DNA from: Clostridia bacterium | GTDB lineage: Bacteria > Bacillota > Clostridia > Oscillospirales > CAG-272 | Length of the DNA stretch: 52,736 nucleotides | Direction: 5' to 3' | Assembly: GCA_017411605.1 (NCBI GenBank) | Contig: JAFQPR010000093.1 | Span: forward strand, 1-52,736 | Part shown: positions 31,597-52,736 of the stretch, one piece after another | Layout of the letters: every line of letters starts with the position of its first letter | Position numbering within the stretch: position 1 is the first letter of the stretch | The notes under the pieces: generated by a model | Seen by the model: only the letters and a program-made list of their open reading frames with translations | What the model was told of the DNA's origin: nothing | The model's database searches: none | Program-made: the position numbers and the translations under genes

Positions 31597-31722
31597 AACA
31601 GTGGGATGCGGAAGATAAACCGTAGAGCAAAAGGCGAAAGTAATCTTGCCCGAATGCTCACTTCGTCCCTGCGGCAACTCCCCGTCCGCAAAGCACTGAA
31701 ACGCTTACCGTCCTACTCTGTT
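31597..31722 (-). promoter_or_regulatory. Tetrahydrofolate riboswitch
   Basis: Minus-strand leader with THF-aptamer landmarks in order: AGAGTAGG, AGCGTTTCAGTGC, ACGGGGAGTTGCCGC, GGACGAAG and GCATCCCACTG. Ends AACAG (31722-31718) and CTGTT (31601-31597) can close P1. It precedes a folate transporter gene, where this class is usual. Identified by eye; not verified by a covariance model. Confidence 0.75.
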
Positions 31723-35359: not shown

Positions 35360-35389
35360 TTGACTAGTGAATGTTTATTATGCTATAAT
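35360..35389 (+). promoter_or_regulatory. Promoter of the first giant surface protein gene
   Basis: TTGACT (35360-35365), 18-bp spacer, TATAAT (35384-35389) with a TGC just before the -10; 57 bp before the ATG. Confidence 0.8.
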
Positions 35390-35445: not shown

Positions 35446-38400
35446 ATGAAAAAGACTAAATTGATAGTTGCTCTCGCGGCTTTGCTCTGCCTGCTTGTTT
35501 CAATGCTTGCGGTTCATACGTTTGCGGCAGACGGCTCGGTGAGCTACGGTGGTCTTGCTTTAAGCGGCGGTACAGATGACGTGACGGGCAACAAGTTTGG
35601 TATGGATTCTTATCAGACCTGTAAGGATGCCGACGTAATTCCCGTAACGCTTGAGGCATGGGTGTACGTTCCTGCATCGCTCGAGGGCGAGGCGCTCGGA
35701 ACTCTTTACGGTAATTATTGGACATCTTCAAAGTACGGTATGGCGTACATTAACTGGGAGATAGCGAAAAACGCTACTCCGAAGCTTGTATGGAACAGCT
35801 CGCTCGACGGAGAAAACTATGACGTAACCTTCAGCGAGTCGCAGCTTCCCACGAATGCGTGGACTCATCTCGCGATCGTTTACAACGGTGATACGGGTGT
35901 TGTATCCTGCTACGTAAACGGAACGCTTACAGAGGAGAAATACTATTATCCCGCGATCGACCCCGATGTTCTTGAGCTTCCGATGATGATCGGCAGTGAT
36001 ATCAGAACGATGAATACAAACTATTTCAAGGGTGAGATAGGAGATATAACGGTTTATTCGGACGTAAGGACTGCCGACGAGATCGGCGCGGACTGCTCAA
36101 AGGGAATGGATATGACCGCAGCCGAGGCAGATCTCTCGAGCGCTATATGCTATTACGATATAGACTCCGACGATATCGGTAAAAATATAGCCGATGAAAG
36201 CGGAAACGGCTATGATATCATATATAGCAAAGCATGGCTTACCGAGGCTGAAATGGAAGCTATAAGAAGCGCATCGGGCTTCAAGCCTTCGTATTCATTC
36301 GCAGTTATGGGTGATACTCAGATGCTGGCGGATTATTATCCCGAAAAGATGCCCGTGCTTTATCAGTGGATCGTGGATAATGCCGCCGCGGATAAAAAGA
36401 ATATCAAATTTGCTATCGGTCTTGGTGATATCACCAACGATAACGGAAGAGATGACAGATATGAGTATGACGAAGCGAATAAGGTGTACTATAAGGTCAG
36501 CACCACTGCCGACGGTAGTGCGCCCTATACTCAGTGGGACGTTGCGTACGATGCGATAACTCTTCTTGACGGAAAGGTCCACTACGCTCTTGTAAGAGGT
36601 AATCATGACGTATATTCCGGTTATGACGGCGTAAGACTTGAAGGCTTCAATTCGCATTTCGAGAATTCCGAGTGGTTTACCGCGCAATTTACCGCAGAGA
36701 ACGGCGGTGGACTTTATACTACGGGTCCCGACCCCGTTACGGGTTATAGGGTATCGTATGCAAATACGTATCAGACACTGACGGTAAATAATACGAATTA
36801 TCTGTTCTTGAATCTCGACTGGAGAATAACCGCGGATATCGTGAACTGGGCTGAGCAGGTTCTTAAAGCTCATCCCGACCATAGTGTTATAGTCAGCACG
36901 CACTCTTATCTTAACGCTGACGGAACTACCGAGGACCTTGGAGATCCTACTCCGAGAGGCAGCTATAACGGAGACGTTCTTTGGGATATTCTTTTCTCGA
37001 AGTATGCGAACGTCAAAATGATCCTTTCGGGACATATAGACAGCGAAACGATAGTAACCAATCAGGTTAAGGGTGATAACGGAAACACAGTTACAGAGGT
37101 TCTTATCAATCCTCAGGGCTTTGACTCAAAGCTCGGCGGAACCGCTATGATAACGATGTTCTATTTCAATGAGAGCGGCGATGAGATATTTGTTGAGTGG
37201 TATTCGCCGACAAAGGATAGGTATTACAGAAACCTTAATCAGTTTGTAATAGATCTTGATGCTGATATTGAAAAGAATGCGGAGTCCGCTTGGGACGGAG
37301 CAACCACTGCCCAGCCTTCAGGCTCGGGAACCGAGGCTGATCCTTATCTTATAGCAACCGCGGAAAATCTTGCGTGGATCAGCACGAAGATCACCGATGG
37401 CGGAGTATCCTTCGCAGGTAAATATTTCAAGCAGACGGCTGATATCGACCTTTGCGAAAACGTATTCACGTCTATTGGAAGCTATTATATAAGCTCATCC
37501 AATATGGCGGCGTTTGGCGGTATTTACGACGGATGCGGCTATTCAATAAAGAACGGAACAATAACCGGCGGTAAGCTTATAACAAGCACGAATAGTCCCG
37601 CCCCCGAGCGTTACTTCAATTACAGCGAGGGCTACGGTCTGTTCGGTGTGATCTACGGCGCGACGATCAAGAATATCGTTCTTGATGACGTTCAGGTGGT
37701 AGGCAGAGGCGCAACGGGCGCGATAGTAGGTCGCGCGGCTGCTCCCGAAATAACGGATACCGCGCTCGCGGGATTCAACTCGATAGTTGGCTGCGAGATC
37801 ACCGATACTGTTAAAATAGTTACTCTTCTTCCTAATAACGGCGGTTCTGCTCCTACCTCGTTTGACGATGGACTAAGAGCGGGACGAGTAGGCTCCGTCT
37901 GCGGTATGGCTTACTCCGCGTACATTAACGGCTGTACTTCTGCGGCAGAGTTCAGTCTATCGGGCGATTTCACGCTTGCGGGCGGTATAGTCGGAACAGC
38001 GGGACTTAACAGCAGAATAGAAAACTGCGCGTTTTTAGGCGGTATGACTCTTGCCGAGTGCGCATCGGGACTCGTTTCCTATCTTGGCGGTATAGTCGGT
38101 GCCGTTTCTCCTTCCGAGAGCAGCGCAGACCTGATGGGAACAAGGCTTGATATAAGCGGTATTCTTTATATCGGCAACTGTTATAACAGCGGCTACTTCA
38201 GCTATATCGGCGGTGAGGTGACTTCCGACGTTTATTACGGCGGTATCATCGGCTTCTGCGGAGATCTGGCTGACGTCGATGACGATAATATAACGTATCC
38301 CTACCTTATAGAAAATTGCTATAACCTTTATGAAAAGACAAAAGAGAATTCCGCGCTCAACGTTGCGGGACTTGTTGGTTATGCAACCGCAGGCGAAAAG

Positions 38401-41400
38401 ACTCTTTACGTAAAGAACAGCTATTCGGTGGCAGTTGATGCAGCCGATGGCGAGAGCAACGAATATAAATTCGCAGCGGGCTCTACCGTGATCGACGGAC
38501 TTGACGCCATTGTTGCCGAGAATTGCGGAACTCTTGCCAAGGCCGATATGAGCGGCTACGTTTCATCTATTGATGCGAGCATTGCATCTGTCAAGGCAAA
38601 CGGTGTGGCTCTTAATTGGAAGGTCGGCTCGGGCGCTCCTTCGGGAACGGCTGCTGAGGGACTCAAGTATCTTGACGTTGCAAGCAATGTATACTATGTA
38701 TATGAGAGCGGCGCATGGACTGCCGTTAGGAATATTGCAATAACCGATAGCTCGCTTGAAACCGAATACGGCACGATTCCGAACAAATATGCAACCAACA
38801 CCATTGTAGTGTTTATCAAATCGGGTGACTCGTACACTTGTGTCGGAGGTTATGACACTCTTACCGATGCGGTCAATTGCGTTGTAAACTCAAAGTATAA
38901 TCTTCCGTTAGATCCTAATGCTGAGGGCGTTGTTTATTTCAGAGCTGACGTTACGACGAAGAGCAACGTAAGCGGTAACCTCGGATACAACGTCGGAACT
39001 GTAATATTCGATCTTGGCGGTCATACTCTGACTCAGGCAAACAGCGAGCCTATTTTCAGGGGCTATTCGAAGTATATGAACGGAGTACCCGATAGCCATC
39101 CCGACATATATTATCTTCCCGGTTACTACGTAATCAGAAACGGAGGTATCGTTCTTGATACCGACGGACTATTCTACTTCGGTACTGACGGATCTGCATA
39201 CAATAATTATACGGGACCTGCTCCCTACGAAGTGAAAACCTTGGATTGGACGCTTGACGGAGTTAACGTATCTCTTGCCAGAGATGCGACTCTTACAAGC
39301 CTTATCGGAAGATACAAAGAGCATACGGATCATAAGGTAGATAAGCCTACGCATTTTAATCTTACTATCAAGGAAAACTGCGTGCTTGATATAACCTATG
39401 CTCCGGAAAACTTCGTTCTCTTCGATGCGTTTGACCCTATCACAGATGGTATGATAAACAGCGTATCCTACAACACTGACTCTATCGTAAACGTTGAGGT
39501 CGGCGCTTGCGACGTTATCGCGGCAAACGATGAGTTCATACTCCATAAAATAAATCCCGATAATAGCTCGTCGGTAACATATACAGAGGATGCAAGCGGT
39601 AATTATCTTAACCTTAATATTGGCGGTACGGAGTATAATCACGAGGATCTTTATACTCCTTACGGATACATAGATATCGATTATATCGACGTTGCTTCAT
39701 ATCCTGTTATCGAATTCAGCTATTCTAATGGTAATTACACTTGCTATAAAGCATATACGAACCTTGGAGATGCGCTCTCGGGTAACGGCGGCGCAAGAAT
39801 TCGTTGCAGAGATGAGGGAACGCTTGCCGTAGTTTATCTGCGTGACGACGTTACTCTCTCCGCTGCCATAAGCGGTAATATGGGCTTCATCTGCGGAACG
39901 ATGGTTATCGACCTCGGCGGAAATACCATTACTCAGACAGGCAGCGCGCCTATCTTCAAGGCGTTTGCAAAGTATGACGGTTCGCGTATCGGAAACTCTA
40001 ACTTCAAGCTTATAAACGGTAAGATCGAGCTTACGAGTCATAGCTTGTTCTACGTAGGTCTTGAGGGTACAGCTTATGCTAACGATATCACCCACGTGAA
40101 GAACGTTAACTGGACTCTTGATAATCTGACTCTTACGGTAGGCTCGGGCGTTACGAACGTATTTACGGAGTATTCCGAATACGGCTCTAATACAAACGAC
40201 GGCAGAGAGATGATATTTAATCTCACCATAAACGATAACTGTGTTATTGATATGAGAAACGCTGCCGCAGGCGCACTTCTCTTCGGCGCAAACGATCCTA
40301 ATATAAAGAATACCGCAGGTACGTCAACGTGCTATACCGATTCAAAGGTAAACATCAACGTCGGGGCTTGCAGTATACTTGCAACGAGCGGTAATGACCC
40401 CGCATGGGTTTCCGTAAACGAGGATAACGGCTCATCCGTAACCTTCACCAAGAATGCTAAAAATGAGGGAACTACCGTAACGGTCGGTGACGTGACCTGC
40501 ACTTACGAAAGTCTTTCTACACGTTACGGATACGTTCCTCTTAAGTATGCGGCTTATCCTATCGCCGAGTTCAAGCTTGAAAACGGTAAATACGTATTTA
40601 ACAAGGGCTATGCTTACTTCAACGAGATATCTTCAGTAAACGGACTTTGCAGATCTGCAGATGCGAAAGCTGTTATCTGCCTCAGAGAGGATATCAAAAC
40701 TTCCAACTACACCGGAAGCGCATCTTACGTATCCGGAAATCTTTGCTGGAATATGGGTACGGTTATAATAGACCTCAACGGTCACACGATTACTCAGGAT
40801 GCTCCTAACCCCATTCTGAGAGCTTACGCAAAGCACGTCTCGGCAACTGTGATGTCGGAGTCGGGAAAATTTGAGATCATTAACGGAAATATCATTCTCA
40901 ACTCATACGGAATATTTGACGTCGGCGCAGAGGGATCGGCTTATCAGAGCTCAACCCTGGATAAAACTCTCTATTGGACTTTTGATAATATCAATATCTC
41001 ATTCGGTAAGGGCGCAACCGTAAATTCACTCCTGCAATTCACGGAGAAGCTTAAGGTTGCTCGTACCATGGGTATGAATGTGACTATAAAGGAAAACTGC
41101 GTAATCGACCTCGAGAACGCTCCCGCAAACTTCCTTCTCTTTAATGCAAACGAGACAACGTCTGCGTATACAGAATCCGTTGTAACCTTCAACGTTGAAG
41201 GCGCGAAGATAATCGGCGGTGACAATAGCTTCAAGTGGGCTGACGTTCACGCAAGCAACGGATCATCGGTAGCATTCGTTAATTCCGATAACGGATACGT
41301 TCAGCTTGAGCTTCCTGGCGAAGCAGCTTCTCTTCTTGATACTTCCGTCGTGTTCAAGAGCTCAAATGGCGCGGACCTCACGCTCGTTAAGATCTCCGAG

Positions 41401-42285
41401 GGAGAGGAGACCACCGTTTATACTCTTGCTCCCGCAAGCATAAAGAGCTTCGTTCCAAAGATGAGCTTAACGCTTGACAGAAATCTTATAATGAACGCGT
41501 ATATACCTGTTAATAACCTACAAAAGTTTACATTTGACGGTATTATTTACGATAATCTTGCTTCGCTTGCAGATAAGAAGGTAACTCTTGATGACGGTAA
41601 TGACTACTATCTCATCACGCTTTCTCTCGATGCAAAAGAAGCGGCAAGAACGGTTAAGCTTACAGCAACCGTTGATATTGAAGGCAAGAGCGCTACGGCA
41701 ACCTTCACCTTTAGCATACCCAAGTATGCAGAGAAGCTTATCGCGAGCGAAAACGGAACAGAGGTAACACTTATCAAGGACGTGCTTCAGTATATCCGCG
41801 CTGCATACGCCTACTTTGGCACGAACGATACCGAAGCTATATCAAAGATAAATGCTATCCTTGGTGACTATTCAGCGAAGCCCACTGTCGAGGGCGACAC
41901 TGCGGCAACTGCAAAAGGCTTCAAGTCTGTGACCTTTATTCTTGACGGAACTCCTTCGATGAGATTCTATCTCGCAGACGGCAAGTCCGCATCGCAGTAT
42001 AAGTTCTATATAGGCGAAAAGCAGCTCGGCGTAGAGGTATCCGCAGACGGAACTTACGTTGATATAGACGTTTACGCATACGCACTCTGTGAAACTGTAA
42101 ACGTAAAGGTTGACGGTAATGACGCGGGCAGCTTCCATATCAACGCGTACTACGCATTCGTCAGCGGCACGGGTGAGAATTCTTACACGGGTGCGGACAA
42201 AGAAGCTCTTACCGCTCTTACCGAGTGCTTCTGGAAGTATCTGCAGAGCGCGAGAGCGTACAGAGAATCGGTTATTGAAAACTGA
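35446..42285 (+). CDS. Giant secreted LamG-metallophosphoesterase-beta-helix protein, 2279 aa
   Basis: Sec signal peptide to about residue 28 (LAVHTFA). Domains: LamG-like sandwich (~37-225); calcineurin-like phosphoesterase (~285-610) with FAVMGDTQ, GLGDIT, RGNHDV, STHSY and SGHIDS; GLUG-like repeats (~626-1000; GGIVGTAG, AGLVGYAT); three tandem ~290-residue repeats starting near 1105, 1401 and 1690, each with YG-I/Y-P-x-Y, a DLGGHTLTQ-type strand and ENCVID-type turns, suggesting parallel beta-helix; then a C-terminal domain (~1964-2279; PKMSLTLDRNLI, KDVLQYIRAAYAYFG, WKYLQSARAYRESV). No LPXTG, SLH or dockerin was seen. The last GHxH histidine is Asp. AAGGAGA precedes the ATG. Confidence 0.85.
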   Translation: MKKTKLIVALAALLCLLVSMLAVHTFAADGSVSYGGLALSGGTDDVTGNKFGMDSYQTCKDADVIPVTLEAWVYVPASLEGEALGTLYGNYWTSSKYGMAYINWEIAKNATPKLVWNSSLDGENYDVTFSESQLPTNAWTHLAIVYNGDTGVVSCYVNGTLTEEKYYYPAIDPDVLELPMMIGSDIRTMNTNYFKGEIGDITVYSDVRTADEIGADCSKGMDMTAAEADLSSAICYYDIDSDDIGKNIADESGNGYDIIYSKAWLTEAEMEAIRSASGFKPSYSFAVMGDTQMLADYYPEKMPVLYQWIVDNAAADKKNIKFAIGLGDITNDNGRDDRYEYDEANKVYYKVSTTADGSAPYTQWDVAYDAITLLDGKVHYALVRGNHDVYSGYDGVRLEGFNSHFENSEWFTAQFTAENGGGLYTTGPDPVTGYRVSYANTYQTLTVNNTNYLFLNLDWRITADIVNWAEQVLKAHPDHSVIVSTHSYLNADGTTEDLGDPTPRGSYNGDVLWDILFSKYANVKMILSGHIDSETIVTNQVKGDNGNTVTEVLINPQGFDSKLGGTAMITMFYFNESGDEIFVEWYSPTKDRYYRNLNQFVIDLDADIEKNAESAWDGATTAQPSGSGTEADPYLIATAENLAWISTKITDGGVSFAGKYFKQTADIDLCENVFTSIGSYYISSSNMAAFGGIYDGCGYSIKNGTITGGKLITSTNSPAPERYFNYSEGYGLFGVIYGATIKNIVLDDVQVVGRGATGAIVGRAAAPEITDTALAGFNSIVGCEITDTVKIVTLLPNNGGSAPTSFDDGLRAGRVGSVCGMAYSAYINGCTSAAEFSLSGDFTLAGGIVGTAGLNSRIENCAFLGGMTLAECASGLVSYLGGIVGAVSPSESSADLMGTRLDISGILYIGNCYNSGYFSYIGGEVTSDVYYGGIIGFCGDLADVDDDNITYPYLIENCYNLYEKTKENSALNVAGLVGYATAGEKTLYVKNSYSVAVDAADGESNEYKFAAGSTVIDGLDAIVAENCGTLAKADMSGYVSSIDASIASVKANGVALNWKVGSGAPSGTAAEGLKYLDVASNVYYVYESGAWTAVRNIAITDSSLETEYGTIPNKYATNTIVVFIKSGDSYTCVGGYDTLTDAVNCVVNSKYNLPLDPNAEGVVYFRADVTTKSNVSGNLGYNVGTVIFDLGGHTLTQANSEPIFRGYSKYMNGVPDSHPDIYYLPGYYVIRNGGIVLDTDGLFYFGTDGSAYNNYTGPAPYEVKTLDWTLDGVNVSLARDATLTSLIGRYKEHTDHKVDKPTHFNLTIKENCVLDITYAPENFVLFDAFDPITDGMINSVSYNTDSIVNVEVGACDVIAANDEFILHKINPDNSSSVTYTEDASGNYLNLNIGGTEYNHEDLYTPYGYIDIDYIDVASYPVIEFSYSNGNYTCYKAYTNLGDALSGNGGARIRCRDEGTLAVVYLRDDVTLSAAISGNMGFICGTMVIDLGGNTITQTGSAPIFKAFAKYDGSRIGNSNFKLINGKIELTSHSLFYVGLEGTAYANDITHVKNVNWTLDNLTLTVGSGVTNVFTEYSEYGSNTNDGREMIFNLTINDNCVIDMRNAAAGALLFGANDPNIKNTAGTSTCYTDSKVNINVGACSILATSGNDPAWVSVNEDNGSSVTFTKNAKNEGTTVTVGDVTCTYESLSTRYGYVPLKYAAYPIAEFKLENGKYVFNKGYAYFNEISSVNGLCRSADAKAVICLREDIKTSNYTGSASYVSGNLCWNMGTVIIDLNGHTITQDAPNPILRAYAKHVSATVMSESGKFEIINGNIILNSYGIFDVGAEGSAYQSSTLDKTLYWTFDNINISFGKGATVNSLLQFTEKLKVARTMGMNVTIKENCVIDLENAPANFLLFNANETTSAYTESVVTFNVEGAKIIGGDNSFKWADVHASNGSSVAFVNSDNGYVQLELPGEAASLLDTSVVFKSSNGADLTLVKISEGEETTVYTLAPASIKSFVPKMSLTLDRNLIMNAYIPVNNLQKFTFDGIIYDNLASLADKKVTLDDGNDYYLITLSLDAKEAARTVKLTATVDIEGKSATATFTFSIPKYAEKLIASENGTEVTLIKDVLQYIRAAYAYFGTNDTEAISKINAILGDYSAKPTVEGDTAATAKGFKSVTFILDGTPSMRFYLADGKSASQYKFYIGEKQLGVEVSADGTYVDIDVYAYALCETVNVKVDGNDAGSFHINAYYAFVSGTGENSYTGADKEALTALTECFWKYLQSARAYRESVIEN

Positions 42286-42346
42286 AAGGAGGAGTGATTA
42301 ATGCAGAATTCAAAATGCAGAATGCAGAATGAAAAGAATGAATTAG
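42275..42346 (+). repeat. 72-bp identical block, copy 1 (end of giant gene and start of peptide gene)
   Basis: These 72 bases match 49257-49328 exactly and cover the giant gene's last codons, the AGGAGG and the first 15 peptide codons. Flanking DNA has diverged more, so recent duplication or gene conversion is likely. The block includes tandem AATGCAGAA units. Confidence 0.9.
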
Positions 42347-42480
42347 CGGTTATGAGTTATATAGCTCCCGAGCTTGAAGTGATCGGGCTTGACGCGAAGG
42401 ATATCATCACTACCTCGCCGGGTACAGAAACAACACCAAAGGAAGATAACGACGGTATCTGGGACTTCGATTTAGGTTGA
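42301..42480 (+). CDS. Small acidic peptide paired with giant surface protein, copy 1, 59 aa
   Basis: Starts 15 nt after the giant gene's stop with GGAGG 9 nt upstream. Sequence: MQNSKCRMQNEKNELAVMSY, then IAPELEVIGLDAKDIITTSP, then GTETTPKEDNDGIWDFDLG. The same gene follows the second giant protein (49283). The copies differ by several synonymous changes near the 3' end yet keep the peptide sequence except for A16V, M18V, K33M and F56L, so it is translated and under selection. There is no signal peptide; it is acidic with one Trp. Function unknown; a secreted or modified peptide, assembly factor or tag are possibilities. Confidence 0.75.
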   Translation: MQNSKCRMQNEKNELAVMSYIAPELEVIGLDAKDIITTSPGTETTPKEDNDGIWDFDLG

Positions 42481-42525
42481 TTTCAATCTAATCAAGAATC
42501 ACTAATTTAATATCCATAAAGCAAA

Positions 42526-42557
42526 AAGGCTTACCCGATTAATGTTGGGTAAGCCTT
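42526..42557. terminator. Terminator between peptide gene and AraC gene
   Basis: Perfect 11-bp stem (42526-42536 and 42547-42557). The T-run is better on the minus strand (TTTTT after the stem), so it chiefly ends the AraC gene; on the plus strand a run is lacking. Confidence 0.75.
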
Positions 42558-42627
42558 AAGCTTTGGCAAAATTGTAAATAATAGTGTTCATATTATGGGA
42601 AAATGTTGATGATTAAAAAAAGCAACG

Positions 42628-43452
42628 TCATAAAATAGCATCGTTCGTAACGATCTTCTTAGGGTAAAACATACGGTATTCGTTTGGCGTGTATCCCGTA
42701 AGCTCCTTGAAGCTTCGGTAAAAGCTTCGCTCGCTTCCAAAGCCGCACTCGATAGCAATGTCGACTACCGTTCTGTCGGTATTCTTCAAAAGATGTCTTG
42801 CGGATTCAAGGCGTAGCATTGATAGGAGAGTAGTAAAACCGAATCCTGCCGCGCTGTTGATGCATCTTGAGAGATATTTTTCGTTGTATCCGAGTGCGGC
42901 TGCGGTTTTGGAGATAGTGATACGCTCGCTTTTATGAGAATCAACATACGTTATAACCTTGCTTAAAACGTTATCGTCTACGTGCTTTTCAACGAGCGGT
43001 ACGTTATTGGAATAGTCGCCGATAATATTGTATAAAAAGCCTTTTACCTTGTAAAGTGTCAGGGTATCCGTACGTACCGTATCTAAAAAAGCCGCATATT
43101 CACCGATATTCAGAGGGAATACCGAGCGCTCGCCCGTGTTCTTCTCGTTGGGCGCGAAAAAGGATTGAATAAGCGAAGGTAAAAAATTAAATCTGAAGTA
43201 TTCCGTTCCCTCGGGTCTGTCGTATGCGTGGGATTGGAAAGGGAAGAGGAGAGCGCACTTCCCCGCGGGAATCTTCTCGGATTCCTTACCTAGCACGTGC
43301 AGAGTCAATTCTCCCGACGTAACTAAGAGAAGCTCTGCGGAGGGATGAATATGAAAGTGCATTTTGCATTCTTCGACGTTTCCAAGTAAAATACTGTGCT
43401 CTTTTGCGCTAAAAGAGGTGGAAATTTCCTGTAAAGTATTAAAATATTTCAT
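42628..43452 (-). CDS. AraC-family regulator with cupin domain, 274 aa
   Basis: N-terminal cupin/AraC-binding domain (CKMHFHIHPSAELLLVTSGE and LFPFQSHAY) and C-terminal double HTH (ITISKTAAALGYNEKYLSRC and RTVVDIAIECGFGSERSFYR, ending FKELTGYTPNEYR). It senses a small ligand, usually a sugar. It lies between the two giant surface protein genes and is divergent from the second. Three GGCATA motifs lie in the intergenic region, so control of the giant gene is likely. AGGTAGG precedes the ATG. Confidence 0.9.
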   Translation of the reverse strand: MKYFNTLQEISTSFSAKEHSILLGNVEECKMHFHIHPSAELLLVTSGELTLHVLGKESEKIPAGKCALLFPFQSHAYDRPEGTEYFRFNFLPSLIQSFFAPNEKNTGERSVFPLNIGEYAAFLDTVRTDTLTLYKVKGFLYNIIGDYSNNVPLVEKHVDDNVLSKVITYVDSHKSERITISKTAAALGYNEKYLSRCINSAAGFGFTTLLSMLRLESARHLLKNTDRTVVDIAIECGFGSERSFYRSFKELTGYTPNEYRMFYPKKIVTNDAIL

Positions 43453-43478
43453 AAAAACCTACCTTTATGTAACCTTCT

Positions 43479-43545
43479 GGCATATATCATACCATATAAT
43501 GGCATAAGTTGTCAAGACGGTTATGCTATAATTAAATCGGGCATA
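43479..43545. promoter_or_regulatory. Candidate AraC sites (GGCATA repeats) and extended -10 of the second giant gene
   Basis: GGCATA occurs at 43479-43484, 43501-43506 and 43540-43545; the first two are 22 bp apart. TGCTATAAT (43524-43532) is an extended -10 for rightward transcription, with the second motif at the -35 position and no good -35 box. This fits a promoter that needs an AraC activator (inference). Confidence 0.45.
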
Positions 43546-43633
43546 CACGCGTTTTATTATTAGTATGTATAAACGATACGTGGCTTTTGTATCATTCTGA
43601 TTAAACAAATTAAGTTTTAAAAGGAGAATGGAA

Positions 43634-46600
43634 ATGAAAAAGAGAAGAATTTTGGTAATTGCTCTCTCGTTGGTGCTCTTTGTAGGACTTGCGATCTGCG
43701 CTTCGCTTTCGGTTTTTGCGGATAGCGCCGTTACAGAGTCAAGCTGGATAGCTGCACCGAAGAAAGCATTGGTAAAGTGCGCAGGTGAGGGCTGCGATCA
43801 CAAGGAATGTGATTACGTATATTCCTTCGCGGTTATCGGCGATACGCAGAACCTTAATATCTATGACGTCAATAATAAGACGGAGCATATGAAAGGACTA
43901 TACAATTGGATACTTGCTAATAAGGATAGCAAGAATATTCAGTACGTTATGGGACTTGGAGATATTACTCAGGCTTATTACAGAGGATACCAGAGCGGTG
44001 TCTGGGAGGAGGAATGGGTAAACGCCAAGGAAGCGATCTCCTTGCTTGACGGAAAGATTCCATATTCTCTCGTAAGAGGTAATCACGATATTACAGCAGG
44101 CTTTAACGGAGCATTCGGTGTAGGTAATAAGTATTATACCGACCTTGCAGCACTCGCTGCGACAAAGGACAGCGTAGATGAAAACGGCAGACCTATGGCA
44201 GGCTTCCTAAACGCGGATAAAATTGAGGATACCTACCGTAAGGTAATCATAGGTGATCATAAGTATATAATTTTCACGCTTGATTGGCATCCGACCGAGG
44301 AGTGTCTGACCTGGGTTGATACGGTACTTGCCGAGAACTCCGACTATCAGGCAATAATTACCATCCACTCGTTCATAACCCGTGACGGTACGATAACGGA
44401 CGACTACGAGGATACCTTCCCATATGAAAACCTTACGGGTACCCGCCCCAACTGGGAAGAGGTTTCAGCGTCGGGCGGTAACGTTTTCCCGAAGGTTCTC
44501 TGGGAAAGCGTACTCTCAAAGCATAAGAACGTTGAGATGATCCTCTGCGGTCATATAGATGAAGACGATATTATAACGACTCAGCTTGAGGGTGAAAACG
44601 GCAATACCGTTACCGCAATGCTGATCAACCCTCAGACGATAGACAGCACGGTTGAGCCTGTTGGTATGGTTGCTATGTTCTACATCTCGGCGGACGGCAA
44701 GGTTATGAACGTTGAGTACGTTTCAACCGTAAGAGAGGCTGCGAATAAAAACGCTTATCTCGGCAATCAGAATCAGTTTGAGGTTCGCCTTGATTATACC
44801 GTATCCGAAACGAATAACGGATGGACAGAAACTCCTCACGGCAGTATTCTGACCGAGATTTATAACGCATATCCCTTCCACGTCCTTATGGACGATGACT
44901 CGGACGAGAGCACGGATGCATTCCTCTTTGGCAGCTATTCGAGCTGGGAGGAAACGCTCAAGGCTATTCACGATTTCTGCGGCAACTCAAGACCTTCATC
45001 ACATAAAAAGATGAAGACCTATTACGTAGTTATGTCGAAGGACTACACCGATACGTATGTCGGCATTCACGATAACCGCGCCGCGTATAACTTGGGCAAA
45101 ACCGTTCTCGATCTTAACGGAAAAACGCTGACTCTGGCTTCTACTGACGGCGTATTTCTTCCGTTCTACGTAACTTCGAGTGGAAAATATCCGAAATTTA
45201 CAATCACGAACGGAAATATTGATATTACGGGCAAGGTTAAGCTCGTTGCGCTCCAGAGCGGATCAGCTGCTCAGGGGGAAACCGGTACGCTTGAGCTTTC
45301 CGATCTTAATATCACGTATTCTTCGACCGCAACCGCAACGCCATTGATCACAACTTATAACGGTTCCGGCACGGGAAGCTACGTTGACTTTAAGATTTCG
45401 AACTGTAATATAGATTCGTCTGCCGTAAACGGCGCTATGACGCTGTTCGGTCTTAACGATACTAATAATAACAACCACGTCGCATTGAATATAACGGGCG
45501 GTAGCATCAAGGGCTCAACCTCGGCTGACACAACAGTTTTCGCACTCAATAACCTATCGGATAAGGTTACCTTCACTAAGGATTTGGGCGGTAATTATAC
45601 GACCTTGACATTTGCTGACAACGCATCCTTTGACGGCGTGTTCTATTCCGACGTAAAAGATACTTATCTTGAGTTTGGCGCGCCTGTTGCCAACGGAGAT
45701 TCCTACGTTTATTCTCTTGAAAAGTCGGGAGCCGTTCTCACGGATTACGGAATTATTCCCGAAAGCGCAACCTCGTATCCCTTCGTGCTCTTCAAGAACG
45801 GCGAGATGATCCACACATCTTCTGATTGGAATACACTTATTAATACCGACTTTAAAGGCACGGCAAATTATCAGTCGGGATGCACGCTTCTACTCAGAAA
45901 GGATTACAGTACAAGCAGCTCTACGGGTAGCCCCTCTTGGTTCGCTCGCATTGATGACTTGACTATAGACCTCGGTGGAAACACGTTTACCCGCGGCTCG
46001 TATCATATGTTCCAGCTTATGGGAACAGAGTCAACCGCGCACTCCACTTCCTTCAGAATAATCAACGGAACGATTGCAACGGGAAGCAGTACTGCACCCG
46101 TAGTATTCAATAACGCAGATTCTAATACCAATACCGATACGTTTGACGTCACATTTGACGGTGTTAAGTTTGACCTTAGCGCTTCGGTTACAGGAAGTCA
46201 GGGAATTTTAGTATGCTTCGGTGACGGTATTGAAAAGGGAGTTGATGCTAATATAACACTCAACGATTGCACGATCTATCGCGGCTCGTCAACGAGAAAA
46301 ATGACACTCTTTGCACTTATCGACGAAAAAGAGGGCAAGGTTAACAACAAAACAGACGTTAACGTAGTAATCAACGGAGGAGAACTTGTCGCGGATACTA
46401 TGTCAGGCATTACTCTTGCGACCTATAGCCCTGCAAGAGAAGGTATGACCGCCTCTGCGGACAGTCTTTCGTTAGGTAAGGGAAGTGACGGTAAATACCT
46501 TATAGCAAAGCTTCCCGCATCTTATACCGTCCCTACGACTACGTATGCTTTGCTTGACGGCAATTACGCTGTTGGAAAGGATTCGGATGACGGAACTACT

Positions 46601-49267
46601 GCATATTGCAGCTTCAATAAGCTCACCACTCCTTACGGTGACGTTTCAGCAAAGTATGCATCTATTGTAAATTATCCGTTTGCGGTATTCTATAACGGCG
46701 CATTCGTAGAAGCATTTGGCTCTTATAATAAGGCTATCGGCAAAGCCGTAGCTCTCATAGATACCGATGCAGAGGTTGCGATATGCGATACGGCGTACGT
46801 AGTACTCAGAAGTAATTTTGTTGCTACAGATAACGGATATTTCTCGGGAGCGAGAGGAAAATTGATAGTTGATCTTCAGGGATACACTATCAGCTCCTCT
46901 ACTGCGGCTCTTGCGAGCATCAGTTGGAATTATAACTCCATAACCGACGAGGCTGCTGTGGAGAAGTATCTCAGCTACACCTCGAATATCACGTTCAAAA
47001 ACGGTACTATCAAAAATGACAGATCGGGACTTCCCATCATCGCGATAGACCAGACGAACGGAAGCGCAACGACAGTTCCGAGCGCTACCGCAAAGAAGCT
47101 TTACTACGGATTTGAGAACGTGACCTTCAGAACGGCAAGTCAGCCTATTTTACACAACTATGACAAGACGACCTCTCACGGACTTGAAGTAACAGTTTTC
47201 GCGAAGAATTGTACCTTTGACTTTACGGGCGCTACCGAGGGCGTAGCAATGATCTCGCTCTTTAACAAACTCGTTAAAGCAAATATTGAGCTCGTCGGAT
47301 GCGACGTTATCGCAAGCAAGCTTGATAGCTTTAACGTTTATAAGATCGGCTCTGACGATACTGCAAAGATAACCAAGGGTGATAACGGTGTTTATATGAC
47401 CGTAACACAGTCGACCGAGGCTCTCCCGACCACAGTATATAATTTGTCCGACGGCGGAAGCGCATCCTTCTATCTCACGTCAAGCGCAGGCGGAAAATAC
47501 GTTTATGATCTTGGCGCTGATGAGTTTATAGACGGTTATGGCACTATCCCTGCTCAGTATACCAACAAAGAGACCTATCCCGTAATTCTTTTCGATAACG
47601 GCTCCGCGACAGGATATACGACAATAGCAAATGCTTATGCAGCATTATCTGCGACAGGGGATTATACAATTCTTATCAGAAGAGACGTAATTAAGGATAG
47701 CAATAAGGGATTAAGCACCTTCAGAGGAAATCTTACTATTGACCTTGACGGACATACGCTGACGGTAACTCTTGGCGGAAACTATCTTATCGATATAACG
47801 CTAAGTGACGTAGGCGCGGGCGCATCGGCAAGCTTTAGCTTTAAAAACGGTACGCTTAAGAAGGAAGGCGGACGCGGTCATATTCTCTATAACTACAATG
47901 CAAGCTTAAACGGAAGCGCAAATTATAGGTTTGATTTCGATAGCGTAACGTTCGTTTCAACAGACTCTACATATACACCTAACGTAGTATTCAATACATG
48001 GGAAAACGGATTTGACAACGCAACCGTTGCGGCAAGCGATTATAAGCTTGTTGCAAACTCAACCTTCACGGACTGCGTATTTGATTTCGCAAGCTCGATT
48101 GACGGAGCGGTAATGCTTCCTCTTAACCATAGCAGTAATACTAAGGACAGAGTCGTGCATAACGTTACCGTTAACGGCGGAGTTGTTCTTGCCGATAGCG
48201 CATCTGACTTTGCAGATAGATTTGTCAAGCTTGACGGTAACACGAATGGCAGAGCGGATTCTATCACCTTCGCAAAGGCAAACGGAGGTAATTACACGGC
48301 GCTTGTTCTTCCTTCGGGAACGGAAGCTCCCACCGCAGAGTATAACGGACTTGTATTCGTTAAGATATCCGATAACGAAACAAACGTGACTTACAGACTT
48401 AGACCCGCAGAATTTGCAGATTTGAATTATGCACCTAAGATGAGCCTTACTCTTGATAGAAATCTCGTTTTGAATGTATATATTCCTGTTAACTGCACAC
48501 AAGAGTTTACATTAGACGGTGTAAAATACACAGATTTTACCGCCTTTGACGGTAAAACGGTCGAATTTGAAGGAGCTATGTATTATCTTGTATCGGTAGA
48601 GCTTTCGGCAAAGGAAGCGGCAAGAATTGTAGCTCTTGAAGCAACCGTAAAGGTTGACGATAAGACCGCTACCGCAACGTTCACCTTCTCCACCGTGACT
48701 TATGCTGAAAAGCTTCTATCCGATTCTGCTATCACACAAACGGAAAAGACGCTTGTCAAAGACGTTCTTCAATACATCAGAGCCGCATATACCTACTTCG
48801 GTACCGAAGATGCCGAGCAGATGGCAAAAATCAACACGCTTCTCGGTGACTACGTATCTAAACCCACGGTAGAGGGAAGCGACGCATCCGATACGACGGG
48901 AATGAAGAGCGCGACTCTCGTTCTCTCGGGCAAGCCTAGCATCAGATTCTATCTTGCCGACGGAGCGAATGCATCGGCATATAAGTTCTACGTTGGCGGA
49001 AAAGAGGTTAACACTATCGTTTCCGATGACGGAACATACGTTGATATAGACGCTTACGCATACGCGCTTTGCGAGACCGTGACCTACACGATTGACGGTA
49101 ATGACGCGGGCAGCTTCCATATCAACGCGTACTACGCCTTCGTTAGCGGCGCGGGTGAGAATTCTTACACGGGCGCAGATAAAGCCGAGCTTACAGCTCT
49201 TACCGAGTGCTTCTGGAAATATCTCCAGAGCGCAAGAGCGTACAGAGAATCGGTTGTTGAAAACTGA
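43634..49267 (+). CDS. Giant secreted metallophosphoesterase-beta-helix protein, 1877 aa
   Basis: Paralogue of the protein at 35446 lacking LamG and GLUG parts. Sec signal peptide (ALSLVLFVGLAICA, end near residue 30), phosphoesterase (~58-390; FAVIGDTQ, GLGDIT, RGNHDI, TIHSF, CGHIDE), four tandem ~300-residue repeats starting near residues 399, 700, 996 and 1296 (YG-I-P...YPFVLFKNGE, TIDLGGNTFTRGS), and the shared C-terminal domain (~1570-1877; APKMSLTLDRNLVLNVYIPV, SARAYRESVVEN). Start ATG at 43634 has GGAG 7 nt upstream; the ATG at 43628 is too close to it. The 59-aa peptide gene follows 15 nt later. No known anchor signal is visible. Confidence 0.85.
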   Translation: MKKRRILVIALSLVLFVGLAICASLSVFADSAVTESSWIAAPKKALVKCAGEGCDHKECDYVYSFAVIGDTQNLNIYDVNNKTEHMKGLYNWILANKDSKNIQYVMGLGDITQAYYRGYQSGVWEEEWVNAKEAISLLDGKIPYSLVRGNHDITAGFNGAFGVGNKYYTDLAALAATKDSVDENGRPMAGFLNADKIEDTYRKVIIGDHKYIIFTLDWHPTEECLTWVDTVLAENSDYQAIITIHSFITRDGTITDDYEDTFPYENLTGTRPNWEEVSASGGNVFPKVLWESVLSKHKNVEMILCGHIDEDDIITTQLEGENGNTVTAMLINPQTIDSTVEPVGMVAMFYISADGKVMNVEYVSTVREAANKNAYLGNQNQFEVRLDYTVSETNNGWTETPHGSILTEIYNAYPFHVLMDDDSDESTDAFLFGSYSSWEETLKAIHDFCGNSRPSSHKKMKTYYVVMSKDYTDTYVGIHDNRAAYNLGKTVLDLNGKTLTLASTDGVFLPFYVTSSGKYPKFTITNGNIDITGKVKLVALQSGSAAQGETGTLELSDLNITYSSTATATPLITTYNGSGTGSYVDFKISNCNIDSSAVNGAMTLFGLNDTNNNNHVALNITGGSIKGSTSADTTVFALNNLSDKVTFTKDLGGNYTTLTFADNASFDGVFYSDVKDTYLEFGAPVANGDSYVYSLEKSGAVLTDYGIIPESATSYPFVLFKNGEMIHTSSDWNTLINTDFKGTANYQSGCTLLLRKDYSTSSSTGSPSWFARIDDLTIDLGGNTFTRGSYHMFQLMGTESTAHSTSFRIINGTIATGSSTAPVVFNNADSNTNTDTFDVTFDGVKFDLSASVTGSQGILVCFGDGIEKGVDANITLNDCTIYRGSSTRKMTLFALIDEKEGKVNNKTDVNVVINGGELVADTMSGITLATYSPAREGMTASADSLSLGKGSDGKYLIAKLPASYTVPTTTYALLDGNYAVGKDSDDGTTAYCSFNKLTTPYGDVSAKYASIVNYPFAVFYNGAFVEAFGSYNKAIGKAVALIDTDAEVAICDTAYVVLRSNFVATDNGYFSGARGKLIVDLQGYTISSSTAALASISWNYNSITDEAAVEKYLSYTSNITFKNGTIKNDRSGLPIIAIDQTNGSATTVPSATAKKLYYGFENVTFRTASQPILHNYDKTTSHGLEVTVFAKNCTFDFTGATEGVAMISLFNKLVKANIELVGCDVIASKLDSFNVYKIGSDDTAKITKGDNGVYMTVTQSTEALPTTVYNLSDGGSASFYLTSSAGGKYVYDLGADEFIDGYGTIPAQYTNKETYPVILFDNGSATGYTTIANAYAALSATGDYTILIRRDVIKDSNKGLSTFRGNLTIDLDGHTLTVTLGGNYLIDITLSDVGAGASASFSFKNGTLKKEGGRGHILYNYNASLNGSANYRFDFDSVTFVSTDSTYTPNVVFNTWENGFDNATVAASDYKLVANSTFTDCVFDFASSIDGAVMLPLNHSSNTKDRVVHNVTVNGGVVLADSASDFADRFVKLDGNTNGRADSITFAKANGGNYTALVLPSGTEAPTAEYNGLVFVKISDNETNVTYRLRPAEFADLNYAPKMSLTLDRNLVLNVYIPVNCTQEFTLDGVKYTDFTAFDGKTVEFEGAMYYLVSVELSAKEAARIVALEATVKVDDKTATATFTFSTVTYAEKLLSDSAITQTEKTLVKDVLQYIRAAYTYFGTEDAEQMAKINTLLGDYVSKPTVEGSDASDTTGMKSATLVLSGKPSIRFYLADGANASAYKFYVGGKEVNTIVSDDGTYVDIDAYAYALCETVTYTIDGNDAGSFHINAYYAFVSGAGENSYTGADKAELTALTECFWKYLQSARAYRESVVEN

Positions 49268-49328
49268 AAGGAGGAGTGATTAATGCAGAATTCAAAATGC
49301 AGAATGCAGAATGAAAAGAATGAATTAG
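49257..49328 (+). repeat. 72-bp identical block, copy 2
   Basis: Exact copy of 42275-42346 spanning the end of the giant gene, the AGGAGG and the start of the peptide gene. Confidence 0.9.
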
Positions 49329-49462
49329 TGGTTGTGAGTTATATAGCTCCCGAGCTTGAAGTGATCGGGCTTGACGCAATGGATATCATCACTACCTCAC
49401 CGGGTACAGAAACAACACCAAAGGAAGATAACGACGGAATTTGGGACTTAGATCTCGGTTAA
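49283..49462 (+). CDS. Small acidic peptide paired with giant surface protein, copy 2, 59 aa
   Basis: Second copy of the gene at 42301: same length, spacing and RBS. Differences are A16V, M18V, K33M and F56L, plus silent changes in codons for Ala32, Ser39, Gly52, Ile53 and Leu58 and a different stop codon. Met18 has become Val (GTG), and no RBS precedes it, so translation from the first ATG is favoured. The conserved part is PELEVIGLDAxDIITTSPGT and DNDGIWDxDLG. Confidence 0.75.
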   Translation: MQNSKCRMQNEKNELVVVSYIAPELEVIGLDAMDIITTSPGTETTPKEDNDGIWDLDLG

Positions 49463-49558: not shown

Positions 49559-52500
49559 ATGAAAGCATTTCGCATAAGGAAAATAGCAACAGTCGTTTTC
49601 GTTCTTTTTGCTGTTTTGATCTCACTTGTTTTTGTTCTTGATTCTGCGGCTGCAGAGGCAGAGAATGACGTTGCGGTGGGCAGTAAGGGCGAGATCGACG
49701 TGTGGCTGATCGCAGGTCAGTCAAATGCGGTTGGCTTTGGAAGTGACGGCTTGTCGGCGCAATATCTTGAAGACAAAAGATATACCGAGGGATTTGATAA
49801 CGTTCTTTTCTGGGGTAAGTATGAATCAACGTACAATCCCGAGGCTTTCGTTCCCGTAACGGTTGGACTTGGAAAACAGTCCGCGACGAACACAACTACC
49901 GTAGGCGCTGAGATAGGAATGGCGGCGGCACTTGACGGTAACGGAAGAATGAATGCGATAATCAAACGTGCTGTCGGTGGGTCTTACCTTTATCCGACGA
50001 CTTATAGCACGGTATCACAGAATTCGGGTACGTGGACGTCCCCATCTTATTTGGAAAAGTATTCGATAGATACCGAGGGAAATAAGCTCGGTAACCTCTA
50101 CACAGAATTTATACAGACCACAAAAGACGGAATAGATATGCTTATTGCCGACGGTTATACTCCGGTCATTAAAGGTGTCTGGTATATGCAGGGTGAGGCG
50201 GAAACGCCGACCCAGCTTTATGCAGATGCATACGCGGAGCTTCTGACTATGCTTATCGGTGATATGCGAGAGGATCTCGGAGAGATAGTCAACAAGGATC
50301 TTTCAAACCTTCCGTTTGTAATGGGAAAAATAACGAGAAACCCCGAATATGATATTCCCGAATTCATAGATACGGTAACCGCTGCTCAGTTAAGCGTTGC
50401 TTCAGCCGTTGCGAACGCTTATATAGTTGACACAACGGGAATGCCGCAGATAGACGGATGGCATTATACCGCCGATTCTCAGCACGAGATTGGCGTTCAA
50501 TTTATAAACACCGTCATCAATTCGTCGGGTAAATACAGCGTTACCGCAAGCGGAACGGGTGTGAGTCTTAGCGGCGGCGGAGCAAAATCGGTAGGAGATG
50601 AGGTGACCGTTACGTTTACCTCGCTTGAGGGCTATGAGTTATCATCCGTTGCTATGAAGGTCGGCGCGGGGGAAGCCGTTGACATTACGGGCGCTCTCGT
50701 ACAGGACACAGAAAACCTTAGCGTTTATTCGTATACGTTCGTTATGCCCACAGGCAACGTTGCGTTTGAGATAAATGCTACGGACCTCAATGCGGAATCA
50801 ACCGAATACGGTCTTATTCCTTCGATGTTTACGGATGCTGAGAAATATCCCTTCATTCTCTTCAAGAGCGGAGAATTTGTTTACGCCTTTGATGATTGGT
50901 GCGATTTTGTAAACAGTAACAGTATCGCGGGCTGCACTTTGCTTCTTAGAAGAGATTACGATACTACGGAGTCCTCGGGAAGCCCTTGGGCGCTTTGCCA
51001 TAGCGACGAACTCACTATAGACCTCGGAAACCATATCTTCACTCGCGGAATGTACCATATGTTCCAGTGCCTTGGCAGAGATGAGAAGGTATATACCTCA
51101 ACTATAACGGTTAAAAACGGAACTCTCAAGTCTACGTTCTCATACGTTAACGCATCGGGTACAACGACGGGAGCATCTCCACTTGTCGTTTTCAACAATT
51201 CCGCAAGCTCAACAACCGTTGATAAGTTTAACTTTATTTTTGACGGAGTAACCTTCGACGTAAGCTCGGGCAGGGGTATTGTGGCAAGCTTCACAGACGG
51301 AACGTGCGGTACTGACAATACGATAACGCTTAATAATTGCACGATATACAGAGGAGCATCCACCTCGGCTATGACTCTTTTCGCTCTTGCGGAAACGAGT
51401 GGTAATAAGAATGACATTAAGGTTACTATAAACGGCGGTAAGCTTGTCGCTGATACTCTTTCAAAGCTGACCTTCGCTACGTATGACGTTGAGCGCGAAG
51501 CGGGAGAGGGAAGTCCTGACAGTCTTACGCTTAACACAGACTCAAGCGGTAATAAATTTACCGTCGAGCTTCCTCTGAGTGCCGGAACGCCCACGCAGAT
51601 GTTTACCTTCACAAAGGGCGGATATGCAGCCGTAAAGCTTTCGGATGACGGCACAACCGCAAAGTATACTCTCGAATATCTCGGCACTCCATATGGAAAT
51701 ATAGACGTTAAATACGCGTCTGCAGCCGATTATCCGTTTGTATTATTTAAAAACGGAGCTGTACTGACCGCATTCTCTAACTGGAAGACGTTTATTGATT
51801 CGACGATGTATAATTCCGCAGATTACAAGACGGGATGCACGCTCCTGCTTCGCAGAGATTACAGCACGTCAGAGGCATCCGGCAACCCGTGGGCGCTCAG
51901 CTATATCAAGGATATTGTTATCGACCTTGGCGGAAACGTATTCACCAGAGGAAATAACCATATGTTCCAGGCTTACGGTCATGGAAATGCAGCCGGCAAT
52001 ACATCGATAAAAGTAATAAACGGTACTCTTAAGGCTAAGTTCTACAAGGACAACGGAACTACATCCGCAACTCCTCTTATCGTTTTCAATAACTCTGCCG
52101 ATTCGACCGCAGACGACGCCTTTGCATTCACCTTCGAGGGCGTTACCTTCGACGTAAGCGAAGGCAGAGGAATCGTCGCGTGCTACACCGACGGTACGTA
52201 TGGCACTAAGAATACGATGATTCTTAATAACTGTACTATATACAGAGGCACGTCAACTTCGTCTATGACTCTCTTTGCACTTACCGAATCAAGCGGAAAC
52301 AAAAATGACGTTAATATCATTATTAACGGCGGTAAGTTTGTAGCAAATTCTTTCAGTAAGCTTACTCTTGCGACCTTCAGTGCGGAAAGAGAGGCAGGAA
52401 AAGGCTCACCCGATAGCTTGAAATTCGGCGCATACAACGGAAAATACGTAAGCTTTGTTACGAAGAGTGGTAATGCCGCTCCTTCTTATAGCTTTGTGAC

Positions 52501-52736
52501 CGTGAACGGCTCGCAGGTTTCGTTTGCCGACGTCAGCACTAGTGAGAATGCGATATATCAGCTCGGCGAGGATATAAAAACCGATTACGGTTATATCCCA
52601 TATGCTTACAGTAATATAGATAATTGCCCCGTTATCATATTCAAAAACGGTACGTATTACGGAAACAATACGGTATTCTCTGCTGCATATAGTACTGCAA
52701 TAGGACAAACGGGTGATAGCGCGGATACAGTAGTGA
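49559..52736 (+). CDS. Giant secreted SASA/SGNH esterase-beta-helix protein (partial, no stop in window)
   Basis: ATG at 49559, AAAGGAG 7 nt upstream; the frame stays open to the window end (1059 codons). Signal peptide (VVFVLFAVLISLVFVL), then a SASA-type carbohydrate acetylesterase (~45-330): WLIAGQSNAVGFG with nucleophile Ser, WYMQGEAET, and DGWHYTADSQHEIG with the catalytic His. A short Ig-like module (~335-400; GYELSSVAMKVG, YTFVMPTGNVAF) follows, then repeats of ~295 residues starting near 413, 707 and 1007, homologous to those in both upstream proteins (YPFVLFKNG, LLLRRDYSTS, DLGGNVFTRGNNHMFQ). It likely removes acetyl groups from host or plant glycans. The C-terminus is unseen. Confidence 0.85.
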   Translation, partial: MKAFRIRKIATVVFVLFAVLISLVFVLDSAAAEAENDVAVGSKGEIDVWLIAGQSNAVGFGSDGLSAQYLEDKRYTEGFDNVLFWGKYESTYNPEAFVPVTVGLGKQSATNTTTVGAEIGMAAALDGNGRMNAIIKRAVGGSYLYPTTYSTVSQNSGTWTSPSYLEKYSIDTEGNKLGNLYTEFIQTTKDGIDMLIADGYTPVIKGVWYMQGEAETPTQLYADAYAELLTMLIGDMREDLGEIVNKDLSNLPFVMGKITRNPEYDIPEFIDTVTAAQLSVASAVANAYIVDTTGMPQIDGWHYTADSQHEIGVQFINTVINSSGKYSVTASGTGVSLSGGGAKSVGDEVTVTFTSLEGYELSSVAMKVGAGEAVDITGALVQDTENLSVYSYTFVMPTGNVAFEINATDLNAESTEYGLIPSMFTDAEKYPFILFKSGEFVYAFDDWCDFVNSNSIAGCTLLLRRDYDTTESSGSPWALCHSDELTIDLGNHIFTRGMYHMFQCLGRDEKVYTSTITVKNGTLKSTFSYVNASGTTTGASPLVVFNNSASSTTVDKFNFIFDGVTFDVSSGRGIVASFTDGTCGTDNTITLNNCTIYRGASTSAMTLFALAETSGNKNDIKVTINGGKLVADTLSKLTFATYDVEREAGEGSPDSLTLNTDSSGNKFTVELPLSAGTPTQMFTFTKGGYAAVKLSDDGTTAKYTLEYLGTPYGNIDVKYASAADYPFVLFKNGAVLTAFSNWKTFIDSTMYNSADYKTGCTLLLRRDYSTSEASGNPWALSYIKDIVIDLGGNVFTRGNNHMFQAYGHGNAAGNTSIKVINGTLKAKFYKDNGTTSATPLIVFNNSADSTADDAFAFTFEGVTFDVSEGRGIVACYTDGTYGTKNTMILNNCTIYRGTSTSSMTLFALTESSGNKNDVNIIINGGKFVANSFSKLTLATFSAEREAGKGSPDSLKFGAYNGKYVSFVTKSGNAAPSYSFVTVNGSQVSFADVSTSENAIYQLGEDIKTDYGYIPYAYSNIDNCPVIIFKNGTYYGNNTVFSAAYSTAIGQTGDSADTVV

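Follow-up and report, generated by a model that had tools for sequence, protein, structure and literature searches.

The closest described counterparts of the genes treated here are those for linear polyphosphorylated peptides (LPPs), ribosomally synthesized and post-translationally modified peptides (RiPPs) from Bacilli, published on 20 May 2026 with the lppA-K-B-S-D-N genes of Paenibacillus alginolyticus (Nat Commun; PMC13381572, from whose main text our statements on LPPs are taken). In that system the kinase LppK phosphorylates Ser3 of the core repeatedly and did not accept a Ser3Thr variant, while the SipW-like protease LppS (S29, H68, D93) cleaves after residue T-1 only with the RiPP recognition element (RRE) LppB; LppN was silent, and the final product and role of LPPs are stated there to be unknown. 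The Tyr of the YxxP motif in LppA is residue -16, which places an acid (E-2) at Y+14 and Ser3 at Y+18. LPP gene clusters are often situated within capsule loci, and each contains one to three precursors, which are conserved in the N-terminal region and variable at the C-terminus. Here we describe two copies of a 59-residue peptide gene, each directly behind the gene for a giant secreted protein, on a stretch of 52,736 nucleotides from a Clostridia bacterium (contig JAFQPR010000093.1). We call this whole stretch the window and use its numbering throughout; the genome to which it belongs, the own genome (G000), measures 2.80 Mb and is 81.8% complete.

We hypothesize, with a probability of about 0.77, that the two window genes encode LPP-type RiPP precursors, whose products would be linear phosphorylated peptides that are modified and exported, in a dispersed layout. 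We read them in this way because the gene set that accompanies them is the published LPP set and because their leader carries an RRE-type motif. Common to LPPs and to this family are a YxxPx[hydrophobic] leader, a discrete PqqD-type RRE, an HprK-like kinase, a SipW-like Ser-His protease with the key residues, a nucleoside triphosphate (NTP) transferase, a putative ATP-binding cassette (ABC) exporter (here in some relatives), a capsule-type neighbourhood and the lack of a cyclase (PMC13381572). Where the published clusters have their one to three precursors, we find about 30 dispersed precursor genes with a tail that is constant in the own genome, many of them behind giants, and a scattered modification cassette. 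The parts of the two window genes are as follows.

42301-42480, forward strand: first peptide gene, 59 residues, an open reading frame (ORF) with leader and tail, presumed LPP-type precursor.
42301-42408, forward strand: its presumed leader, with YxxP and an acid at Y+14, the exact cleavage point being a prediction from the comparison with LPPs (PMC13381572).
42358-42360, 42367-42369 and 42400-42402, forward strand: leader residues Y20, P23 and D34.
42415-42417, forward strand: near-invariant Ser39, at Y+19, candidate phosphorylation site.
42418-42477, forward strand: genome-constant tail, presumed main part of the core.
49283-49462, forward strand: second peptide gene, 59 residues, presumed LPP-type precursor, with the Ser39 codon at 49397-49399 and the tail at 49400-49459.

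An earlier note on this DNA had described the peptide as one without a signal peptide and without a known family, and had proposed that the peptide itself is under selection; all of this is borne out. The window peptides match no Pfam or NCBIfam family above cut-off and have no convincing relative in the PDB. Searching the own genome with the first copy (tblastn) gave 32 matches at E<=10, the best 25 of them at E<=1.7e-11, and a profile search gave 34 at E<=1e-3, contig-end fragments counted. The absence of the peptide from further genomes, which the earlier note had named as refuting, is not what is seen: the peptide occurs well beyond this genome, with matches in 28 of the 59 nearest genomes and in 75 of 295 genomes drawn evenly from the order, the own genome being included in both sets. 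Own-genome copies differ from one another in the length and sequence of the N-terminal half. The tail, (S)PGTETTPKEDNDGIWDFDLG, is nearly constant in 24 copies, with silent sites close to saturated; one form, quoted as (D)IITTSPGTETTPKEDNDGIWDFDLG, is near-constant in most own-genome copies, and other tails are found in L026 and L028-L030. At the protein level the 24 distinct own-genome tail DNAs give 10 variants, with mean proportions of synonymous (pS) and nonsynonymous (pN) differences of 0.72 and 0.04 over 276 pairs, where pN is biased low and pS unbiased, the copies having been chosen by a protein pattern. For the 13 codons preceding this pattern pN/pS is 0.61, and the DNA just 3' of the tails is 29% alike in an ungapped comparison, i.e. 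unrelated. The 3' halves of the two window copies likewise show several silent differences and few residue differences. Elsewhere, tail pN/pS is 0.06 in a genome of the same genus (G029; 11 copies) and 0.05 in G005 (7 copies), which has a different constant tail, INSQGNNDNTVGIWELPLNWDL; in G014 and G031 the tails vary from copy to copy. A Trp stands among the last 12 residues in 65 of 86 distinct tails. Since silent sites are near saturation while the residues stay constant, selection acts on the peptide itself. That the similarity stems from mobile or repeat DNA was rejected, given the unrelated DNA behind the stop codons and the near-saturated silent sites of the tails.

Some copies are broken or cut, with a partial tail in L141 and several copies cut by contig ends. 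In L141 (9916-10053, reverse strand) the partial second tail copy, PKEDNDGIWDFDLG, lies just behind a full copy and is a broken duplicate. The window copies also have an extra N-terminus, MQNSKCRMQNEKNE, which contains a short repeated DNA, ATGCAGAATGCAGAAT (42315-42330 and 49297-49312). This repeat occurs nine times in 327 kb of own-genome loci, always at the starts of peptide copies, and is absent from the G029 and G005 loci.

To place the leader we used a pattern requiring Tyr or Phe and an acid near Y+14, which 103 of 110 profile matches fit. The 96 distinct leaders so obtained share the motif Y-x-x-P-E-[LI]-E-[IV]-[IV]-x-[LF]-x-x-x-D-[IV]-I-T-T-S, with Tyr in 88 and Phe in 8 (either being demanded by the pattern), Pro at Y+3 in 76, one of L/I/V/A/F/M at Y+5 in 88 and Ser at Y+19 in 87. 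The family thus has the YxxPx[hydrophobic] leader of LPP-type RiPPs, and YxxP is also described as the motif bound by lasso-type RREs (PMC12710340, in the parts used here). A weak NCBIfam match of one family member to a lasso leader (E 0.07) had prompted the search for an RRE. The full LPP consensus YxxPxVLxHQxIxFETxxS is not found in the family, whose own consensus is YxxPExEIIxLxxxDIITTS; the two agree in the Tyr, the Pro, the hydrophobic residue at Y+5 and the acid at Y+14, the Ser stands one place further on, and the leader ends in D-[IV]-I-T-T-S here and in FET-xxS in LPPs (PMC13381572). By analogy, the near-invariant Ser is a likely modification site, and the leader would be cut near D-I-I, with one residue of uncertainty. 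A cut directly behind the invariant Ser, as a small-residue rule would have it, was considered and dropped, as in PMC13381572 the cut falls two residues before the modified Ser.

The modification genes themselves were found in the own genome, but scattered. One PqqD-family ORF lies over cut-off, at C80:14999-15175 (also given as C80:14903-15178; PF05402, E 1.3e-13), and its protein has a weak PDB sequence match to the RRE TfuB1 (E 0.003). Directly after it comes a signal-peptidase-like ORF, whose NCBIfam match to signal peptidase I is below cut-off; the GxSMxP, HR, GD and E of this protease are invariant in 41 of 41 distinct sequences, in line with S29, H68 and D93 of LppS (PMC13381572). The one HprK-like kinase (C26:6300-7001, E 1.4e-74) is encoded beside a Wzz/AAA_31 protein. 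Wzz-type genes also stand beside the kinase in G029, G023 and G034, with Wzz scores just under the Pfam cut-off in the latter two; in G016 and G300 they adjoin other genes of the cassette. An NTP_transf_5 gene on C70 (PF14907, 126 bits against a cut-off of 31.2) adjoins ORFs that read as polysaccharide genes. Weak PqqD matches in two other own-genome ORFs, which we take to encode the SCIFF maturase and L7/L12, were set aside.

In several relatives the genes form an operon with the order peptide, HprK, PqqD, S24/S26 protease, then in some cases ABC and NTP_transf_5. In L217 a giant of 1677 residues is followed by the peptide, a 339-residue protein, kinase, PqqD, protease, ABC and NTP_transf_5; in L218 a protein of 1123 residues precedes the peptide, kinase, PqqD and protease. 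The ABC transporter is identified by Pfam in L119 and L217 and by position in the others. A recognised peptide stands in 17 of 58 fetched cassette loci of relatives (7/38 and 10/20), and many of these 17 were chosen for having one. Across the 295 order genomes the peptide occurs in 75 and the kinase in 86, with 67 having both, 8 the peptide alone and 19 the kinase alone; the kinase is thus present in 67/75 peptide-positive and 19/220 peptide-negative genomes (Fisher 1.9e-39, uncorrected for phylogeny). Within the 59 nearest genomes the kinase is found in 27/28 peptide-positive genomes against 13/31 others, and PqqD in 26/28 against 13/31. Fifteen of the 125 listed peptides, spread over 13 genomes, have a kinase gene no more than 5 kb away, where 0.62 would be expected for 2-Mb genomes. 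This co-occurrence and co-localisation with kinase, RRE and signal-peptidase-like protease genes, together with the YxxP leader, argues for the modified or exported peptide that the earlier note had listed first among its suggestions.

Two of the three kinases scanned show a weak similarity, in their ATP-binding part, to the HPr-rel-A and SynChlorMet cassettes (NCBIfam TIGR04352, TIGR04249), all matches being far below the curated cut-offs. The gene content of those cassettes is other than here. Beside these cassette loci we also note a cluster in G048 (L182, 5902-10726) with PqqD, a YxxP precursor with a Cys-containing core, an HprK-like kinase, an ORF reading as radical SAM, a transporter-like ORF and a signal-peptidase-like protease, which may combine LPP-type with radical SAM maturation. 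In G328 (L216, 7875-8384, reverse strand) two adjacent peptides with Cys in their tails lie beside kinase, PqqD and protease genes.

The same enzymes might suggest a classical lasso precursor whose cyclase is missing through genome incompleteness. A YxxP leader, a PqqD RRE, an HprK-like kinase and an NTP transferase do occur together in paeninodin-like clusters (PMC8498205, PMC13381572); phosphorylated (glycosylated) lasso peptides of the paeninodin and pseudomycoidin type share the B1-type RRE, the K kinase and the N nucleotidyltransferase, as described in the parts of PMC8498205 and PMC5067487 used here. The 81.8% completeness of the own genome also leaves room for a missing gene. Unlike that type, however, no macrolactam synthetase C or B2 was found here, and the window tails are without a C-terminal Ser. 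In the own genome PF13471 (B2) stays below its cut-off (best E 0.09). PF00733 has a single match there, which at 24.1 bits passes the cut-off of 21 but spans just 48 of the 354 positions of the family, and the ORF concerned looks like the ATP-binding portion of GMP synthase. PF13471 is over cut-off in 8 of the 295 genomes, of which only G043 is among the 86 that have the kinase, and there it lies at 235723 and the kinase at 952044; even at E<=1e-3 it is found in only 5 of the 86 (G043, G058, G126, G146, G287). The place of B2 is occupied by the signal-peptidase-like protease. A lasso precursor was rejected because neither B2 nor a cyclase was found in the own genome, and we regard it as highly improbable.

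For an LPP-type precursor we propose the following course, by analogy with the published enzymes. The discrete PqqD-type RRE would bind the N-terminal leader, YxxPExEII...D, and the HprK-like kinase would phosphorylate the near-invariant Ser of the D-[IV]-I-T-T-S segment. The SipW-like Ser-His signal-peptidase homolog, given its substrate by the RRE, would cut the leader just before or within this segment, the NTP_transf_5 enzyme would probably decorate the phosphate, and the ABC exporter would release the acidic tail, in which a Trp stands close to the C-terminus. The roughly 30 precursor genes would serve this pathway from dispersed positions, most of those with a visible upstream gene following giants that share a C-terminal domain (CTD), with which they are probably co-translated, and the modification genes lying elsewhere.

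The earlier note had placed both peptide genes 15 nucleotides after a giant gene, with the same ribosome binding site, and this we confirm: the sequence AAAGGAGGAGTGATTA-ATG is identical for the two. The genes before them are laid out as follows.

35446-42285, forward strand: giant secreted protein 1, 2279 residues, with a signal-peptide-like N-terminus and Laminin_G_3 and Metallophos domains.
41593-42282, forward strand: shared CTD of giant 1 (domain match E 5.8e-95), without Pfam or PDB match.
42286-42300, forward strand: 15-nucleotide intergene with ribosome binding site AAAGGAGGAG, read directly.
43628-49267, forward strand: giant secreted protein 2, 1879 residues, with a signal-peptide-like N-terminus and a Metallophos domain.
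48569-49264, forward strand: shared CTD of giant 2 (domain match E 7.3e-96).
49268-49282, forward strand: 15-nucleotide intergene with the same ribosome binding site as the first, read directly.
35360-35389, forward strand: promoter-like site before giant 1, TTGACT-18-TATAAT, with 11 of 12 positions matching.

Promoter-like sites in the region number 23, where 23.8 would be expected by chance, so there is no excess. A third giant-type gene (about 49560-52736, forward strand) has a signal-like start and runs off the contig, the view ending before any following peptide; its beginning resembles that of an SGNH/sialate-esterase.

The CTD is a domain of about 230 residues common to the giants, which likewise matches nothing in Pfam or the PDB. 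In the own genome 20 of its 34 copies have a peptide within 200 nucleotides downstream, against 0.04 expected. That the peptide follows each giant, as the earlier note had it, is true of both window giants and fails for 14 of the 34 CTD copies, which have none directly behind; two of these 14 are internal CTD copies whose ORF ends before a peptide (C62, C95), and the third giant-type gene of the window is cut by the contig end. Nine of the 10 complete own-genome upstream ORFs have a signal-like start. Another nine upstream ORFs are truncated, and for 11 peptides none is seen, in several cases because the peptide lies at a contig end. Peptides with a tail of the TETT type have a close CTD upstream in 25 of the 26 cases with an upstream ORF; with other tails the CTD is close in 2, one of them cut by a contig end, weak in 7 and absent in 57. 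The peptide L032 of G031, which follows a close CTD, likewise ends in a tail of the TETT..GIW form. A separate stretch of the own genome, G000:C80:37044-53788, holds four consecutive giant ORFs with divergent CTD copies and no peptide match directly behind, on the same contig as the own RRE and protease genes.

This linkage, with the same 15-nucleotide coupling for both window copies, the 20 of 34 CTD copies directly followed by a peptide and the 25 of 26 TETT-type tails behind a close CTD, is what would be expected of an unmodified accessory peptide, i.e. a subunit, chaperone or assembly factor that is co-translated with the giant and binds its CTD. Common descent of a CTD-plus-peptide module, however, accounts for the linkage no less well than binding does. 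The gene upstream need not encode a giant or a secreted protein: members of the family also follow unrelated proteins, among them, in G014 and G031, proteins of about 415 residues without a signal-like start, and the complete upstream ORFs of these two genomes have such a start in 6 of 11 and 3 of 7 cases, respectively (by a crude predictor). A peptide confined to CTD giants was thus rejected, and the giant-specific chaperone or secretion adaptor of the earlier note finds no support; its surface-assembly tag is a possible reading. An unmodified peptide also fits poorly with the RRE-type motif of the conserved leader and with the kinase, RRE and protease genes that are linked to the peptide gene in relatives. 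Finally, the tail is far more conserved than the CTD, whose identity to the first copy is 44-66% in 11 of 13 copies and 36-37% in two while the tails are almost constant, which argues that the tail is kept constant by a factor shared throughout the cell, for instance the modifying enzymes or a receptor. We consider an accessory peptide unlikely. As to the proteins of about 415 residues, they precede many peptides (L199, 6014-7276, reverse strand; L188, 6118-7347, forward strand; similar ones in G014 and G031), the one member scanned has no Pfam match, and by reading a similar stretch occurs inside larger lipoprotein-like proteins in L193 and L198.

Near-constant tails could also belong to an exported signal or species label, a constant species-specific peptide that is made from many loci, released with secreted enzymes and sensed by kin. 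The tail is constant inside a genome and differs between genomes (G000 and G029 against G005), and export is presumed; against this, copies within G014 or within G031 do not share one tail, and no receptor or regulator was identified, none having been searched for. We think it a still poorer candidate than an accessory peptide. Within the LPP-type reading, we tentatively suggest, as a rather doubtful extension, that in these Clostridia an LPP-type peptide serves giant extracellular proteins as a dedicated companion instead of being a natural product in its own right: a species-specific phosphate-modified tail, made from some 25 to 30 loci in step with the giants, would couple their CTD to the polysaccharide coat, for display or anchoring; that the tail acts with the giants or with the coat is a guess invited by the genome layout.

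Several observations weigh against LPP-type precursors and account for our reservation. The own genome holds kinase, RRE, protease and transferase, but scattered, the stretches fetched showing no precursor next to any of kinase, RRE and transferase, and 41 of the 58 fetched cassette loci of relatives are without a recognised peptide. The candidate Ser is at Y+19 and not at Y+18 as in LppA, LPP leaders end in FET where these have D-I-I, and Thr stands at Y+18 in 51 of the 96 leaders, while the LPP kinase did not accept Thr (PMC13381572). No kinase reaches cut-off in 8 of the 75 peptide-positive genomes; G108, G144 and G312, each at least 90% complete, have a peptide but no kinase match, as has G289 (81% complete) with 10 peptides, and the 19 genomes with the kinase alone are the converse. 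RiPP precursors usually have their more constant part in the leader, whereas here it is the tail.

The earlier note had seen here the best candidate for an undescribed system, which stands in part: the enzymes are those of LPP biosynthesis, in print since May 2026 (PMC13381572), and the dispersed, giant-linked layout, which is the unusual part here, was not found in the literature searched. The main text of PMC13381572, supplements apart, does not contain the words clostridi-, oscillospir-, giant, surface or secreted. With precursors tied gene by gene to one giant class and one domain, LPP function becomes testable, in the form of the question whether the modified peptide reaches the giant at the cell surface. 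The peptides in 75 of 295 order genomes point to LPP-type gene sets well beyond Bacilli, and the family is one in which, in some genomes, the tail is constant and the leader varies, one product being encoded about 25 times.

Two further ORFs of the window were noted by reading. One, at 33105-34313 on the forward strand, resembles an XRE-type DNA-binding domain fused to a PfkB-type sugar kinase, and the other, a frame at 29673-31691 on the reverse strand, resembles the S component of a folate ECF transporter fused to a FolC-type folylpolyglutamate synthase.

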